From Candidatus Poseidoniales archaeon (lineage in GTDB: Archaea > Thermoplasmatota > Poseidoniia > Poseidoniales > Poseidoniaceae), in NCBI GenBank assembly GCA_003602635.1, contig QQSJ01000061.1:1-45917 (forward strand): a DNA stretch of 45,917 nt. Direction: 5' to 3'. A program made the translations under genes and the position numbers. A model generated the notes under the pieces. The model saw only the letters and a program-made list of their open reading frames with translations, had not been told where the DNA came from and ran no database searches. Numbering within the stretch: position 1 is the first letter of the stretch; each line of letters begins with the position of its first letter. This document shows positions 24,773 through 30,708 of this stretch, in pieces.

Positions 24773-25846
24773 TCAATGGGCGTGGCCGATGCCCAACACC
24801 TCGGCCACCAGAAGGAGCACGACCATGCCGCCGACGCCAGCCAGCACCAACAGCAAGTCGGTGGAGCCGGTTTCGGAATCATGAACGTCAGGAAGGGTGT
24901 CCAATGCAGCGACGCTAAGCAAGGTCCCTCCAGCAAAGAGCATGGCCAGACCAATCCATCCGCTGGGAAGGCCAGAAAGCAGGAAGTAGGCCAAGACGAT
25001 CATCAGAGGTGTTGATGCTGCAAAAATACCGACGTCCATGAACACTTTCCGCTCGTCGGTATGGTCGTTGAGACTGAACACGCCCAAGGTGAAGGCCTCG
25101 GGGAACTTGTGGATGACCACGGCGAACACAATCAGCAAACCGGCCGCCAAATCTCCGGTCGCTGTCGCAGCACCGATGGCCAGTCCGTCCGTGGCCGCGT
25201 GAATCGTAATTCCGATCACGGCAGACCTGTTCGAACCTGTTCCGTGTGCATGGCCGTGGCCGTGATGCGCATGTCCCGGACCGAAGGTCTGGAAGAGGAG
25301 CATGGACAAGAATCCGAGCGCGAGCGCGCCGCCCATCACCACGGCGCTCAATTCGTTGTCCTCGTCATCGTGGTGATGGTGATCAACGTCGTCCAACAAC
25401 ATACGAATGTCGTTGATCGCCGTGGTCGCGTTCACGCGTCCGCCGTCGTATTGGGCGATGATGTGTTTGAGGCGGTCCTCGAAGGTGGCCTCTTCACCGT
25501 GCTCATGGTCGCTGTGGTCCCCGTGGCCATCCCCGTGGACGACGGAACGTATCTCGCTCATCGCCGTTCCTGACGTGATGGCTCCGTCGTTGTATTCGAG
25601 CATGACCAACGCCACTGGGCCGGCGAGGTCATCTCCGCTTCCGTGGGCATGTCCGCCGCTTGCGGTGTGGAAGCCTTCGGGGATGACGACAAGCAAGGCT
25701 GAAGCGAGCAACAGGCCGGCCGCTACCGCAGTCGCGGCACGGAGGCGGGGTTGGTGACTGGCCAGGTTCAGCGAACTTGGAAGGAGTGCGCCGAGAAGGC
25801 CGACAATGAGCGTGAGCACTGCAAACAGCAGCGCCACGCCAAACAT
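24773..25846 (-). CDS. ZIP family metal (zinc) transporter with His-rich loops
   Basis: It has about eight membrane helices with the ZIP metal-binding pair: HAATDGLAIGAATATGD (helix 4) and HKFPEAFTLGV (helix 5). Two extra-long hydrophilic loops are rich in His and Asp (GDGHGDHSDHEHGEE, VDHHHHDDEDNE, HAHHGHGHAHG) and should bind metal. The loop contains a duplicated segment, DGAITSGTAMSEIR and GGRVNATTAINDIR, each followed by a His-rich run. ATG 25846 is the likely start. It probably imports zinc or another divalent ion. A 25-bp palindrome overlaps the promoter and a NikR-like regulator is divergently encoded. Confidence 0.9.
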   Translation of the reverse strand: MFGVALLFAVLTLIVGLLGALLPSSLNLASHQPRLRAATAVAAGLLLASALLVVIPEGFHTASGGHAHGSGDDLAGPVALVMLEYNDGAITSGTAMSEIRSVVHGDGHGDHSDHEHGEEATFEDRLKHIIAQYDGGRVNATTAINDIRMLLDDVDHHHHDDEDNELSAVVMGGALALGFLSMLLFQTFGPGHAHHGHGHAHGTGSNRSAVIGITIHAATDGLAIGAATATGDLAAGLLIVFAVVIHKFPEAFTLGVFSLNDHTDERKVFMDVGIFAASTPLMIVLAYFLLSGLPSGWIGLAMLFAGGTLLSVAALDTLPDVHDSETGSTDLLLVLAGVGGMVVLLLVAEVLGIGHAH

Positions 25847-25865
25847 GATGCGTGCGCTGTAATTA

Positions 25866-25890
25866 TGTTTAAGTGAGTTATTATTAAACA
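25866..25890. promoter_or_regulatory. 25-bp palindrome, candidate metalloregulator operator
   Basis: TGTTTAA at 25866-25872 and TTAAACA at 25884-25890 form a perfect 7-bp inverted repeat with an 11-base spacer. It lies in a strikingly AT-rich stretch 20-44 nt before the ZIP transporter ATG, where the promoter should be. The divergent neighbour is a ribbon-helix-helix regulator, a class that binds such dyads. Confidence 0.6.
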
Positions 25891-25999
25891 ACGGCGCTTC
25901 AACGGCCGCCGCATGTTGCTCATCTAATCAGGAGCAACGTTCGTGGCGCTTCTATGCGCCGGTTTTGCTTCTCGGTTCTTCGCTGTTCGGACATTCGCC

Positions 26000-26006
26000 T
26001 ATTAAT
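26000..26006 (+). promoter_or_regulatory. TATA box of the NikR-like gene (leaderless)
   Basis: TATTAAT centred 24 nt before ATG 26027 in GC-rich sequence. The distance fits transcription starting on or next to the start codon. Confidence 0.6.
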
Positions 26007-26026
26007 CAGAACCGTTACGGCCCGTT

Positions 26027-26446
26027 ATGGCGAGGGTCCTCTCCTTCAGCGTCGACGACGATTTGGACATGGAAGGATTGGTCCTGAAAGCGGGCTACAG
26101 GAACCGTAGTCGCTTCTTGAGGGACGCCGCCACGCACTACGCTGAGGTTTTGTCGAGCGGGGATCTTGTTGATCGCCCGGCAGAAGAATCGGTGGAGGGG
26201 ACGCTTGTGTTGTATTACCAGCACACCGTCGCGGAAAAGCTCCCTGATTTCCGACACCACACGAACATCAGCCTCATCTCCTCCACGCACGCCTGCATGA
26301 CGGACAGCCATACCTGTGTGGACACGCTCCATTTGTCTGGGGAGGTTGGCACCATTCGTGATGCTGTGGAAGGGCTGCGCCGCCTGGAGGGCGTGGACCG
26401 TGTGGCCTTCGTGACCGCGCCCGCCCGCGAGGACGGGTGTTGCTGA
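26027..26446 (+). CDS. NikR-like ribbon-helix-helix metalloregulator
   Basis: The N-terminal ribbon-helix-helix domain (RVLSFSVDDDLDMEGLVLKA, then GYRNRSRFLRDA) binds DNA; the C-terminal ACT-like metal-sensing domain runs from about residue 55. Compared with E. coli NikR, where H87, H89 and C95 bind nickel, the corresponding stretch here is STHACMTDSHTCVD: H88 is kept, the second His is C90, C97 aligns with C95 with one inserted residue, and the protein ends in CC. The altered ligands suggest a metal other than nickel, such as zinc. Divergent placement next to the ZIP transporter and its palindrome suggests it controls that gene and possibly itself. Confidence 0.82.
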   Translation: MARVLSFSVDDDLDMEGLVLKAGYRNRSRFLRDAATHYAEVLSSGDLVDRPAEESVEGTLVLYYQHTVAEKLPDFRHHTNISLISSTHACMTDSHTCVDTLHLSGEVGTIRDAVEGLRRLEGVDRVAFVTAPAREDGCC

Positions 26447-26520: not shown

Positions 26521-29500
26521 TCAAAACTCTGGGAAATATTTCCGCGTATAGGCCAGGGCGTCTTCTTCGCTGTAGCCTTGTTCGATCAAGTCCGCATGGT
26601 ACGCGAGAGCCTCGGGGTCATGCACAGAAGCATGGTCCAGCGAATCGGGGGATGCATCGACGTTCGCTTCAACGGCGGAGGCCGTCCCGGTCTCATGGTC
26701 GTCCTCACGCTCCTTGGCCTGTTGGGCGGCCACACGCAACGTCAGCATGAGTGAGCCGACCCCCAACAGCACCATCGCTCCGACGATGAGTACGAATGAG
26801 AACGCGTCCCCTGACGTGCCTTTGGCTGAATCATCGAGGCCGTCTTCCTCCTCATCGTCCAAGACGGGTGGCGCGAACGAGTAGGTCCCATCGTGAAGCA
26901 CCGTAGCGGGCCCTGATGGATGGGACGCAGTCATGCTCCATGTCACGTTCCAGGCCACCGAGGAACGGTGGGCTTCGTTGTACTTGATGAAGGCAGGATT
27001 GGCTTCCCAGATGGTCCACTCCATTCCAGGTTGGACGGTGATGGCCCATCCGTCCTCGGTGCCGTCAACGGCGGTCTGCCAGGTCAACGTCACGGGCCGG
27101 AACCCGTTGTTGATGATCTGGCACATGATCACGTCCGTGGCGTTTCCGTCTGGGACGGCGTCCAAACAACTTCCTCCCAAGCCGAGGCTCTGGAGTTCGG
27201 TCAAGTCGAGCAGGGTGACGTTGGTCAAGCAGCCTGAATCGTTCGTATGGCAAAGGGTGACCGAAAGGTTGGCTTCCATCGCACCGGCCATGAGAACGTC
27301 GTTGGCGACGGTCAGGAGGTCGAACGTCTCGTTGCCCTGTCCTTCGGCCACCTCGGCTTCGTGGAAGAGCGTCCCGTTCAGGGCGATCGACAAGAAGGCG
27401 GTGGGCTGATCGGTCTGGAAGTCCCATCCGACCGACACTTCCGTTGGGGTTGTACGGGTGGCCAGAAGGCGTCCAAAGACGCCAACGGGTTCCGCGACGA
27501 GGAAGTCGGCCTCCACCGGTAGGGCCGAGTTCCCTACCTCGTCAAGCACCTCGAGTCGAACGCGGTGCATCCCCTCAACCAACGCGCTCGCCGAGAGGAT
27601 CAGTTCGAGGTTCGTCGCCGGACCCATTCCGGTGCCTTTCGAATCGATTTCGCCGCCGTTTGGTCCAAACACCGTGATCGAGGCGATGGCGTGCTCATCG
27701 GGGCTCAGGGACCACGAGCCTGTGACCGTCACGTCTTCGCCAAGCAGCGCGGCAGGGGGGGTTGAGATGGAGAGGTCGGCCGGGGCCGTTCTGTCCACCA
27801 ATTGAAGGGTGGCGTCATGGCCGGGGCCGAGTCCGTCGTCGTCGGATGCTCCCGCACCGGTGGATTCTGAGAGGTGGACCTCGATCGTCCAAGCACCAAG
27901 GCCTTCGCGGCCCGGGGCCCACGCGGCAAGGTAGGCGCCCTCGGCCGAGTCCCACGGCGCATCCAGCGTGGTGGTCACGCCTTCACGGACGAGATCCATC
28001 GATGCGGTGAGGTCGCTGCGGTTTCCTGCATCGGTCACGCGGAACGTGAAATTCGGGGCATCGCCCTCCCAAGTTCCGGCAAGTTCGGCCCCTTCGAGCA
28101 ACGCGGTGCCCTCGTCCGCAGACACCTGGAGGGTGGCCACTTCGGGCATGCGATCCAGCACTGGGAAGGTGTACGCCGAGGGCGTGGACATGGCGTTGCC
28201 GCGCTCGTCGGTCATCCGGACGCTGACGCTCATGGTGCCGGGCGTGTCACGGTGGTCGGCCGTGTCGATGGAGGCCATCCAACCTCCAATGCCAGCGTTC
28301 CAAGACGTTTCGACGCGATCGGCTTCCGCACCGACGTTCGTTCCGAACCACAGATCGACCGTGGCCGTGGTTTCGTCAATGAGGTCCTCGACGACGATGA
28401 CGGTGCGTTCTCCAAGGCGAACGTCCGGTTCGTCGACGCCCCCGTAACGGTGAATGACACGATCGAGCCGCGGGGGTTCGTTGTCGAGCCACGACAAGGA
28501 AGGGTCGGAGAGAGAGATCTGCACGCCCGTGTCTGTCCCTTGCCCGGTGGCGTAGAGCACGTCATGGGATGACGACAAACCGCAGGTGGTGCTGAGGTAC
28601 ACGCTGCCGCACGTTTGGACGATGCTCGCGTTGGTTGCTGCAGCGAGGGAGAGTGGGGTTTCCATGGACCATGGAACGGCCACGTGCTCAACCGTCAAGC
28701 CAAGGTCACTCAGCGCCGTGTTGGACGAGAGGCTGAGGGTCACGTCGAGCCAAGCGCGCCCATCGCTTGCCGTGCGAGGCGTGGCGGTGGTCAACATCGA
28801 GCCAAGGTGCGCTTGCGACAGCACGAGGTCCCCGCCAGGGTTCACGTCGGTGTCGGCGTCGAACAGAGGTCCGAAGGTTGGGTGGCTCACCGTAAGATCC
28901 GCGTCCGTCAGTGTCCAACCGAGCCACAGGTGCCCGTCGTCGGCAGGCGTTGCATCGGCAGGGAGGCTGAACTCAAGCGTTGCATTGGTGATGTCCAAAC
29001 TTGCTGAAGAAGACGAGAGGCTCATGTCGGTTGGCGCTGAGATGGGTTGGTTGTCGACGGAGAGTGAAAGCCCGTCCACCGTTGTCCATCGGCCCCAATC
29101 AAAGGTCACGTCGACAACGGACGGAGAGGCCGTGCCGTTTCGGGTCATGGCGTACGCCATCTGAACGAAAGTGGCACGGCCCAAGGAGGCGTTTTGAACG
29201 GGCGCTGTGGTCCATGCAGACCACGATGGAGCTGACGTTCCCGGCGCTGACATGGAGGTCCGGACGAGGACGTCCAGCGTGCTGTTGGCCGGAACCGTGG
29301 TGCTGTGGTTCATCCAAAGCGGCCCACGGGCTTCTGGGAACGCGATGGCGTCGCCGATGAACGCCCCGCTCGGAGCTTGGAAGGAGCCCGTGGCATATCC
29401 TGACCATGTGCCGGCGGTCACGGTTCCAGCGGACCCAACGTCGCCGTCGAATCCGTCCACTCCCGTGCCGTACTTCAGGCCCTTCAAGCCGCCGCCGCCT

Positions 29501-30627
29501 GCGGTGGCGCTGATCAAACCAAGAGAGGTGCTGCCACCAGAAGTGGTCCGTGTTTGGACGTACCCGCCACCGCCGCCACCGCCGCCGTCGCCGCCGTCGT
29601 ACATGCCGAATCCTATGCCGCTTTGCTGCCCGTCTTCGCCGTCACCACCGGCACCGCCGTTGGCTGAAATGACGCCGGTCGAGCCGACGGAGAGGGTGTT
29701 GACCTGCACGTCAATGCTCCCGCCTGAACCGCCGCCGCCACCTGAACCGCCTGCGCCCGTGCCACCGTTCGGTGAAACACCTGCATCGCCACCTGCGCCG
29801 TTGGCGAGCAGGGAGCCGTTGACCACGAGGGACCCTGCGCGGATGGTGAGAAGGCCCCCTCCATGTCCGCCGTATGCATCGCCGTAGTTGCTGCTGCCGA
29901 ACACGTCGCCGCCGGGGCTTCCCATTTCTGTGCCGTTCCCGTACGTCGTGCCGCCTGTGCCCCCGTTCGTTCCTCCGCCAGCGCCACCGGCGCCGTTGTG
30001 GCCGCCACCGCCGCCGCCGTCGCTTCGACCGTTGGACGGGGTGGTGACCGAAGAGCCCGCGCCCGAACCGGAGCTTGCCGCCCCCTCGACCGAGATTGAC
30101 GTGCCTGTTTCAAGGATGATTTCACGTGCGTAGATGGTGAGGTTGGTGCCCGTGACAGTGCCGCACACACCGCTGTTGCAGATCAGGTGGAGCGTGTCAA
30201 AGGATTTCGTTCCGGTCCATTGAACGGCGGTAGAGACCTGTTGGCTTGTGTTTCCTGCTTCTGGAGGACCTCCCAGCGTGCTGGTCAAGACCAGTCCAGA
30301 TGGGGTGATGCTCGTGTTGGTGGGTGTCCCGGTGATGGTCCCTGAGGTGAAACTGTAACTCGCTTGTTCAGCGAGGGCGGCGGGGGTCAGCGTCAGATTG
30401 ACCGTACCAGAGGTCATTTCCGCTCCGGGGACCGTGTCGAAACGAACCGACCCTCCGCAACCTGCACAGAGCACGTCGTCGTGCTGAGTGCTGCCGTCCT
30501 GGAAGGAGGTTTCTGTGGCCGTCCATGAGGTTGCAGGAGCGCGTGGGGCCTCCTCCAGGAGGCTTGGGGCCACCGGAAGAACAAGGGCCGTGAACATGAG
30601 CAAGACCAACGCCACTGCGGCTCTCAT
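26521..30627 (-). CDS. Giant glycine-rich cell-surface protein with C-terminal anchor
   Basis: ATG 30627 starts a signal peptide (MRAAVALVLLMFTALVLPVAPS). Of 1368 residues, about 184-396 form a glycine-rich region with runs such as GGGGGGHNGAGGAGGG and intercalated short beta strands (GGSIDVQVNTLSV), suggesting a beta-helical or PGRS-like fold. The middle is a series of beta-sandwich-like (Ig/FN3-type) segments with many N-x-S/T sites. Near residue 1280 is a membrane helix (FVLIVGAMVLLGVGSLMLTL), then about 70 cytoplasmic residues ending in a charged motif (LIEQGYSEEDALAYTRKYF). It is probably an adhesin or surface-layer component; function unknown. It follows uvrA on the same strand after 81 bp. 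Confidence 0.82.
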   Translation of the reverse strand: MRAAVALVLLMFTALVLPVAPSLLEEAPRAPATSWTATETSFQDGSTQHDDVLCAGCGGSVRFDTVPGAEMTSGTVNLTLTPAALAEQASYSFTSGTITGTPTNTSITPSGLVLTSTLGGPPEAGNTSQQVSTAVQWTGTKSFDTLHLICNSGVCGTVTGTNLTIYAREIILETGTSISVEGAASSGSGAGSSVTTPSNGRSDGGGGGGHNGAGGAGGGTNGGTGGTTYGNGTEMGSPGGDVFGSSNYGDAYGGHGGGLLTIRAGSLVVNGSLLANGAGGDAGVSPNGGTGAGGSGGGGGSGGSIDVQVNTLSVGSTGVISANGGAGGDGEDGQQSGIGFGMYDGGDGGGGGGGGYVQTRTTSGGSTSLGLISATAGGGGLKGLKYGTGVDGFDGDVGSAGTVTAGTWSGYATGSFQAPSGAFIGDAIAFPEARGPLWMNHSTTVPANSTLDVLVRTSMSAPGTSAPSWSAWTTAPVQNASLGRATFVQMAYAMTRNGTASPSVVDVTFDWGRWTTVDGLSLSVDNQPISAPTDMSLSSSSASLDITNATLEFSLPADATPADDGHLWLGWTLTDADLTVSHPTFGPLFDADTDVNPGGDLVLSQAHLGSMLTTATPRTASDGRAWLDVTLSLSSNTALSDLGLTVEHVAVPWSMETPLSLAAATNASIVQTCGSVYLSTTCGLSSSHDVLYATGQGTDTGVQISLSDPSLSWLDNEPPRLDRVIHRYGGVDEPDVRLGERTVIVVEDLIDETTATVDLWFGTNVGAEADRVETSWNAGIGGWMASIDTADHRDTPGTMSVSVRMTDERGNAMSTPSAYTFPVLDRMPEVATLQVSADEGTALLEGAELAGTWEGDAPNFTFRVTDAGNRSDLTASMDLVREGVTTTLDAPWDSAEGAYLAAWAPGREGLGAWTIEVHLSESTGAGASDDDGLGPGHDATLQLVDRTAPADLSISTPPAALLGEDVTVTGSWSLSPDEHAIASITVFGPNGGEIDSKGTGMGPATNLELILSASALVEGMHRVRLEVLDEVGNSALPVEADFLVAEPVGVFGRLLATRTTPTEVSVGWDFQTDQPTAFLSIALNGTLFHEAEVAEGQGNETFDLLTVANDVLMAGAMEANLSVTLCHTNDSGCLTNVTLLDLTELQSLGLGGSCLDAVPDGNATDVIMCQIINNGFRPVTLTWQTAVDGTEDGWAITVQPGMEWTIWEANPAFIKYNEAHRSSVAWNVTWSMTASHPSGPATVLHDGTYSFAPPVLDDEEEDGLDDSAKGTSGDAFSFVLIVGAMVLLGVGSLMLTLRVAAQQAKEREDDHETGTASAVEANVDASPDSLDHASVHDPEALAYHADLIEQGYSEEDALAYTRKYFPEF

Positions 30628-30708
30628 GGCCGGCCGTCGAAGGCTTCGGTTTTCACAAACGTGGTGATTTTGTTTCACAGGCGGGTGATGCTGCACTGGC
30701 CGGCCCAC

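Follow-up and report, generated by a model that had tools for sequence, protein, structure and literature searches.

Which metal is sensed by a NikR-like protein whose gene lies divergent to that of a zinc transporter, and through which DNA element might it act? This question is raised by a locus in the window, i.e., the whole 45,917-nucleotide stretch analysed here, which comes from a genome of the Poseidoniales (Marine Group II), the most abundant archaea of the surface ocean. An earlier note, made from the sequence alone, had proposed that a derivative of NikR adapted to a different metal, probably zinc, controls its own importer through a palindromic operator. Zinc transporters of Marine Group II have been described as adapting these archaea to surface water poor in zinc, in passages that name no regulator (PMC6461757). 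In 2009, archaea were reported to be without Zur, and only a small DtxR-like group was predicted to control zinc uptake (PMC2770081); because known archaeal zinc-uptake regulators are so few, the protein described here would fill a gap. NikR itself has been described as the sole metal-regulated ribbon-helix-helix protein (PMC7055735), and no earlier report of a NikR-type zinc sensor was found in the open-access literature searched. The features of the locus are the following:

24773–25846, minus strand: ZIP-family zinc transporter gene, the putative target (Pfam Zip, 7.9e-27; ATG at 25846; His-rich loops)
25861–25886, no strand: degenerate order-wide operator AATTA-N16-TATTA at the ZIP TATA region (half-sites 25861–25865 and 25882–25886), from alignment with the sites of 58 relatives
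25866–25890, no strand: perfect dyad TGTTTAA-N11-TTAAACA, TGTTTAAGTGAGTTATTATTAAACA, not conserved as such in relatives
25867–25872, minus strand: presumed TATA-like element (TTAAAC) of a leaderless ZIP promoter, between the half-sites and at the same distance from the start codon as TTAWATA of relatives
26000–26006, plus strand: probable TATA element of the regulator promoter (TATTAAT), 20–26 bp before the ATG, conserved in the genus
26027–26446, plus strand: NikR-like regulator gene, with an N-terminal ribbon-helix-helix and a NikR_C metal domain (Pfam NikR_C, 1.8e-10; PDB matches to NikR)

A 180-bp intergenic region separates the two divergent genes. For the ZIP gene, the ATG at 25846 was favoured over an upstream TTG (25891), because the TATA-like element then lies approximately 21–26 bp upstream, as in relatives. 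Downstream of the regulator, positions 26521–30708 encode a predicted secreted, Gly-rich repeat surface protein of 1395 amino acids with a C-terminal membrane helix.

A NikR-family regulator with altered metal ligands

The assignment of the divergent gene to the NikR family, made in the earlier note, was borne out by the NikR_C domain, which scored 41.3 bits against a curated Pfam cut-off of 22. The ribbon-helix-helix domain was weakly detected in the window protein (RHH_1, E = 0.095) and exceeded the cut-off in one orthologue. In the AlphaFold model (pLDDT 83), the architecture and fold were NikR-like: all top structure matches were NikR proteins, the closest being those of P. horikoshii (TM about 0.7) and H. 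pylori. No match to the FUR domain, the mark of Zur, was found in a Pfam scan of the regulator. The scores remained far below all NCBIfam cut-offs for nickel-type NikR, with 38 bits versus 105 for PRK04460 and 22.7 versus 175 for TIGR02793.

In E. coli NikR, nickel is bound by H87, H89 and C95 from one subunit and by H76 from another (PMC7055735). The corresponding region reads H88-A-C90-x6-C97 in the window protein versus H87-V-H89-x5-C95 in E. coli NikR, and therefore the earlier note was correct in describing a His-to-Cys replacement at the second His and one residue inserted before the ligand Cys. The relevant codons are:

26255–26257, plus strand: H77, corresponding to nickel ligand H76 and retained by 51 of 63 orthologues
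26288–26296, plus strand: H88 (equivalent of H87, invariant) and C90 (in place of H89; position 90 is Cys in 44, Ser in 17 and Thr in 2 of 63)
26315–26317, plus strand: C97, equivalent of C95, displaced by the inserted residue and present in 61 of 63
26438–26443, plus strand: C-terminal Cys138-Cys139, invariant in 63 of 63 Poseidoniales sequences and absent from the other NikRs compared

Nickel ligands retained in close orthologues would have told against the proposal of the earlier note; the H-H-H-C set is present in none of the 63, as His never occurs at position 90 and the Cys spacing is altered, and H95 is found in 60 of the 63 distinct sequences. The invariant C-terminal Cys pair had been overlooked. 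The composition of the metal site varies, since some members of the family are without C90 or H77, and a Ser-90 branch without H77 carries an inserted HSCHSC stretch, as if its metal site had been rebuilt. An order-wide profile gave 170–242 bits within Poseidoniales and at most 72 outside, and therefore the subfamily is sharply bounded and confined to the order. The Pfam NikR_C matches in Poseidoniales correspond to this subfamily, usually with one per genome.

Partner genes and a shared operator

In 61 of 62 distinct orthologues, the divergent neighbour of the regulator gene encodes either a ZIP protein (24) or a ZnuA-type zinc lipoprotein (37), the latter followed by genes for an ABC ATPase (ZnuC) and an ABC-3 permease (ZnuB). 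The partner type has switched at least four times on the tree, and zinc is indicated because it is all that these unrelated importers, alternating behind one regulator, have in common. The best NCBIfam names for the ABC genes were the zinc importers AztC, AztA and AztB, all below the equivalog cut-offs, and the best PDB match of the ZnuA-type protein was the zinc lipoprotein AdcA. These lipoproteins carry His/Asp-rich inserts, and their third metal ligand is a His within HNAYSY, which we take to be a mark of zinc-type binding proteins. Repeats of His/Asp-rich and EF-hand-like inserts extend some of them (e.g., L048:5493-8933) to 600–1150 residues. A protein search for ZnuA in seven members of the window's genus returned no match, yet a motif search and PF01297 revealed the gene in G008 and part of one in the assembly that contains the window. 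Presence of the regulator was not associated with presence of ZIP alone (p = 0.25): ZIP genes are present in 15 genomes where no regulator was detected, and a second ZIP paralogue also exists.

With regard to the DNA element, the perfect 7-bp inverted repeat with an 11-bp spacer described in the earlier note is indeed present near the ZIP promoter, and this is the sole match to TGTTTAA-N11-TTAAACA when up to two mismatches are allowed across the 1.7 Mb assembly. Dinucleotide shuffling of the 180-bp intergenic region created a perfect 7-bp inverted repeat of one kind or another, with a spacer of up to 25, 22% of the time, so that the dyad by itself proves little. The expectation that it would recur near orthologous transporters failed, as the exact dyad varies within the genus (TGCTTAA/TTAAACA, CGCTTAA/TTAAGAA and CGCTTAT/TTAAGCA) and is lost in L006. 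The sequences of relatives, together with the shuffle frequency, ruled it out as a conserved operator; the conserved element is instead the overlapping TAWTA-N16-TAWTA. Compatible with zinc control, yet doubtful, is the idea that TGTTTAA-N11-TTAAACA is the operator of this genus, its half-site geometry having shifted alongside a two-residue deletion in the DNA-binding domain. Helix 1 of the regulator does have such a gap in the window's genus, and three relatives show partial symmetry (TTAA/TTAA in L004, CTTAA/TTAAG in L003 and GCTTA/TAAGC in L005). Against this stand the loss in L006, the chance frequency in shuffles and the flavoprotein promoters within this genus, which retain TAATA-N16-TATTA and therefore indicate that specificity did not shift.

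The alignment of 58 distinct sites yielded the consensus TAWTA-N2-TATWTAA-N6-YTAWTAATT, in which two TAWTA pentamers, 16 bp apart, flank the importer gene's TATA box. The variable W positions of the two pentamers tended toward complementarity (p = 0.04, uncorrected for relatedness). Outside the window's genus, the intergenic region has a constant length of about 62 bp (mostly with ZIP) or 87–89 bp (mostly with ZnuA). A pattern search of 89 genomes with up to two mismatches gave 87 matches, versus 15 for the reversed control, or approximately one operator per Poseidoniales genome. The matches lie before zinc importer genes, i.e., ZIP or znuABC adjoining the regulator and znuA elsewhere, and before a gene for a YpdA/CzcO-like flavoprotein. 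Since the pattern was defined from sites adjoining the regulator, the independent evidence comes from sites elsewhere. Such sites precede znuA genes that do not adjoin the regulator in G099, G100, G102, G104 and G043, and also in G008 of the window's genus, and they precede the flavoprotein gene in the assembly of the window (G000:C46:45930) as well as in nine others. Among the flavoprotein promoters, 13 of 14 scored above 19 with the position weight matrix (PWM), and the 14th retains both pentamers with a changed TATA core. A site with at most one mismatch was present in 55 of 63 genomes with the regulator versus 4 of 26 without it (p = 1.3e-10, uncorrected for relatedness; G116 was scored as regulator-positive via an ORF in L115). 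ZIP loci without the operator were seen in the regulator-free genomes G042, G065, G067, G069, G075, G080, G081 and G106.

In the window itself, the ZIP site had a PWM score of −2.3, whereas the training sites averaged 39.7. Within this genus, TAATAAGAATTTAASAGATTCTATTA is retained at the flavoprotein promoter (22–33 bits), and the copy in the window genome is a clean site. Regulation of ZIP in this genus is likely, though supported by less evidence than in the remaining order. Comparative genomics lends strong support to the core idea of the earlier note, a NikR derivative for another metal, probably zinc, in control of a zinc importer: the partners are zinc importers in 60+ genomes, ZIP and ZnuABC were exchanged repeatedly, znuA forms a regulon in trans, and every orthologue has altered ligands. 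The part that concerns regulation of ZIP in the window's genus leans on a degenerate site. The flavoprotein encoded in the window genome (L121:1844-3016, contig C46) has 3d1c as its closest PDB entry, and the operator lies 14 bp from its start; its C-terminus carries the invariant SCCG[QK]ECL[TS]C.

Beyond the order, the best-scoring Thermoplasmatota matches include NikR variants in which H-S-D-F-D..C-C-E replaces H-x-H..C, and which adjoin znuA-znuC-znuB genes in L146, L148, L149, L150, L154 and L162. On the tree, these variants and the Poseidoniales proteins fall opposite the nickel-type NikRs (99/99, with few columns and long branches). Two upstream regions of znuA were readable: one contains, 49 bp upstream of the start, TAATA-N16-TAATA (seen in 0 of 2000 shuffles) and the other a pair spaced by 15 bp. 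In L149 (1020-2360), a gene recognised by eye as that of a probable cation-diffusion facilitator lies behind znuABC and the NikR variant, an arrangement which suggests that importer, sensor and exporter are clustered together. One non-Poseidoniales genome with a NikR-like gene after znuB carries a second such gene (L146:6142-6546), which is oriented divergently to znuA and has the ligand region GYTHSHTGSKLCND.

Zinc and the alternative readings

Taken from these comparisons, it appears highly probable that the regulator is a zinc-responsive co-repressor of NikR fold which governs zinc uptake through a regulon of ZIP or ZnuABC and the flavoprotein. The sequence comparisons show the family, the ligand changes, the partner genes, and the common operator with its place on the promoter; we infer zinc as the ligand, repression that depends on the metal, and the identity and geometry of the coordinating residues. 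When zinc is sufficient, it would occupy a Cys/His site formed by H88, C97 and neighbours (either H77 or C90, and perhaps also the C-terminal Cys pair). With its two ribbon-helix-helix pairs seated on TAWTA-N16-TAWTA, the zinc-bound tetramer would then cover the target's TATA box and block TBP. Under zinc scarcity, the regulator would be released, and ZIP or ZnuABC and the CzcO/YpdA-like flavoprotein would be expressed. Points against the zinc reading are the low score of the ZIP operator in the window, the members without C90 or H77, the regulator-free genomes that carry ZIP and a Fur-family gene in the window genome. ABC importers of the ZnuABC class can also transport Mn or Fe.

That the regulator has remained a nickel sensor, with ZIP and the ABC importer supplying nickel to Ni-SOD and the ligand changes being tolerated, deserves attention, since Ni-SOD is used by many Marine Group II archaea (PMC10783094) and is encoded in most Poseidoniales genomes; family membership and the possible promiscuity of ZIP proteins point the same way. 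We nevertheless consider it very unlikely: the regulator is present in 17 genomes without Ni-SOD and absent from 14 with it (46 of 63 versus 14 of 26 genomes, no clear association, p = 0.09), the partner ZnuA is of the zinc type, no orthologue has the H-H-H-C set, and no nickel transporter was seen among the neighbours examined or the operator matches. Sensing of another metal (Mn, Fe, Co or Cu), or of the thiol redox state via the C-terminal Cys pair, is unlikely too, as the alternation of ZIP and zinc-type ZnuABC targets indicates zinc and a Cys-rich site suits zinc as well; the invariant CC tail of the regulator and the Cys-rich tail of the co-regulated flavoprotein, a relative of the YpdA disulfide reductase, would fit a redox circuit. 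Finally, a Fur/Zur homologue might govern zinc uptake, leaving to the NikR-like protein only the flavoprotein or itself. The single Fur-family gene of the window assembly and the weak ZIP operator of its genus lend themselves to this, which is very unlikely given that Fur-family genes occur in just 11 of the 89 Poseidoniales genomes and in 0 of 3 other genus members searched, and that the NikR-like operator lies at znuA and ZIP promoters elsewhere.

Going beyond Poseidoniales, we think it probable that a zinc-sensing NikR-fold branch spans Thermoplasmatota, with a rebuilt Cys/His site (including the C-terminal Cys pair in Poseidoniales). In abundant marine archaea it would be the chief repressor of zinc uptake, and it would be the first non-nickel metal-responsive ribbon-helix-helix regulator. 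Candidates for the regulator, the operator and the regulon of Marine Group II zinc uptake are thereby provided, and the change from HHHC to HHCC, or to H..CC plus the CC tail, offers a natural series for testing how a fold changes its metal specificity.

Comparison with known systems

Like NikR of E. coli, H. pylori and P. horikoshii, the Poseidoniales regulator combines a ribbon-helix-helix with the NikR_C fold, keeps the equivalents of H76 and H87 in most members, and has a metal importer as target. The half-sites described for NikR, GTATGA-N16-TCATAC and TRTTA-N15-TAWTA (PMC7055735, PMC5385501), are pentamers or hexamers about 15–16 bp apart, as in TAWTA-N16-TAWTA, and the TAWTA half-sites match the H. 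pylori NikR pentamers, TRTTA and TAWTA, spaced by 15 nt (PMC5385501). Unlike NikR, the Poseidoniales protein has Cys in place of H89, an insertion before C95, an invariant C-terminal CC, zinc importers as targets and, according to the alignment, a hydrophobic residue at the position of the DNA-contacting Arg of the β-strand. The bacterial zinc-uptake repressors Zur (Fur family) and AdcR share the regulon logic (znuABC, ZIP-type importer), whereas their fold is unrelated. ZntR, the predicted DtxR-like regulator of Methanosarcina znuABC (PMC2770081), would likewise control an archaeal znuABC but belongs to another protein family. The NikR variant of the ZnuABC operons in other Thermoplasmatota shares the NikR_C family, the zinc operon, altered ligands and the side of the tree; it differs in its HxD plus CC-E motif, in having no C-terminal CC, and in being the last gene of the operon rather than divergent.
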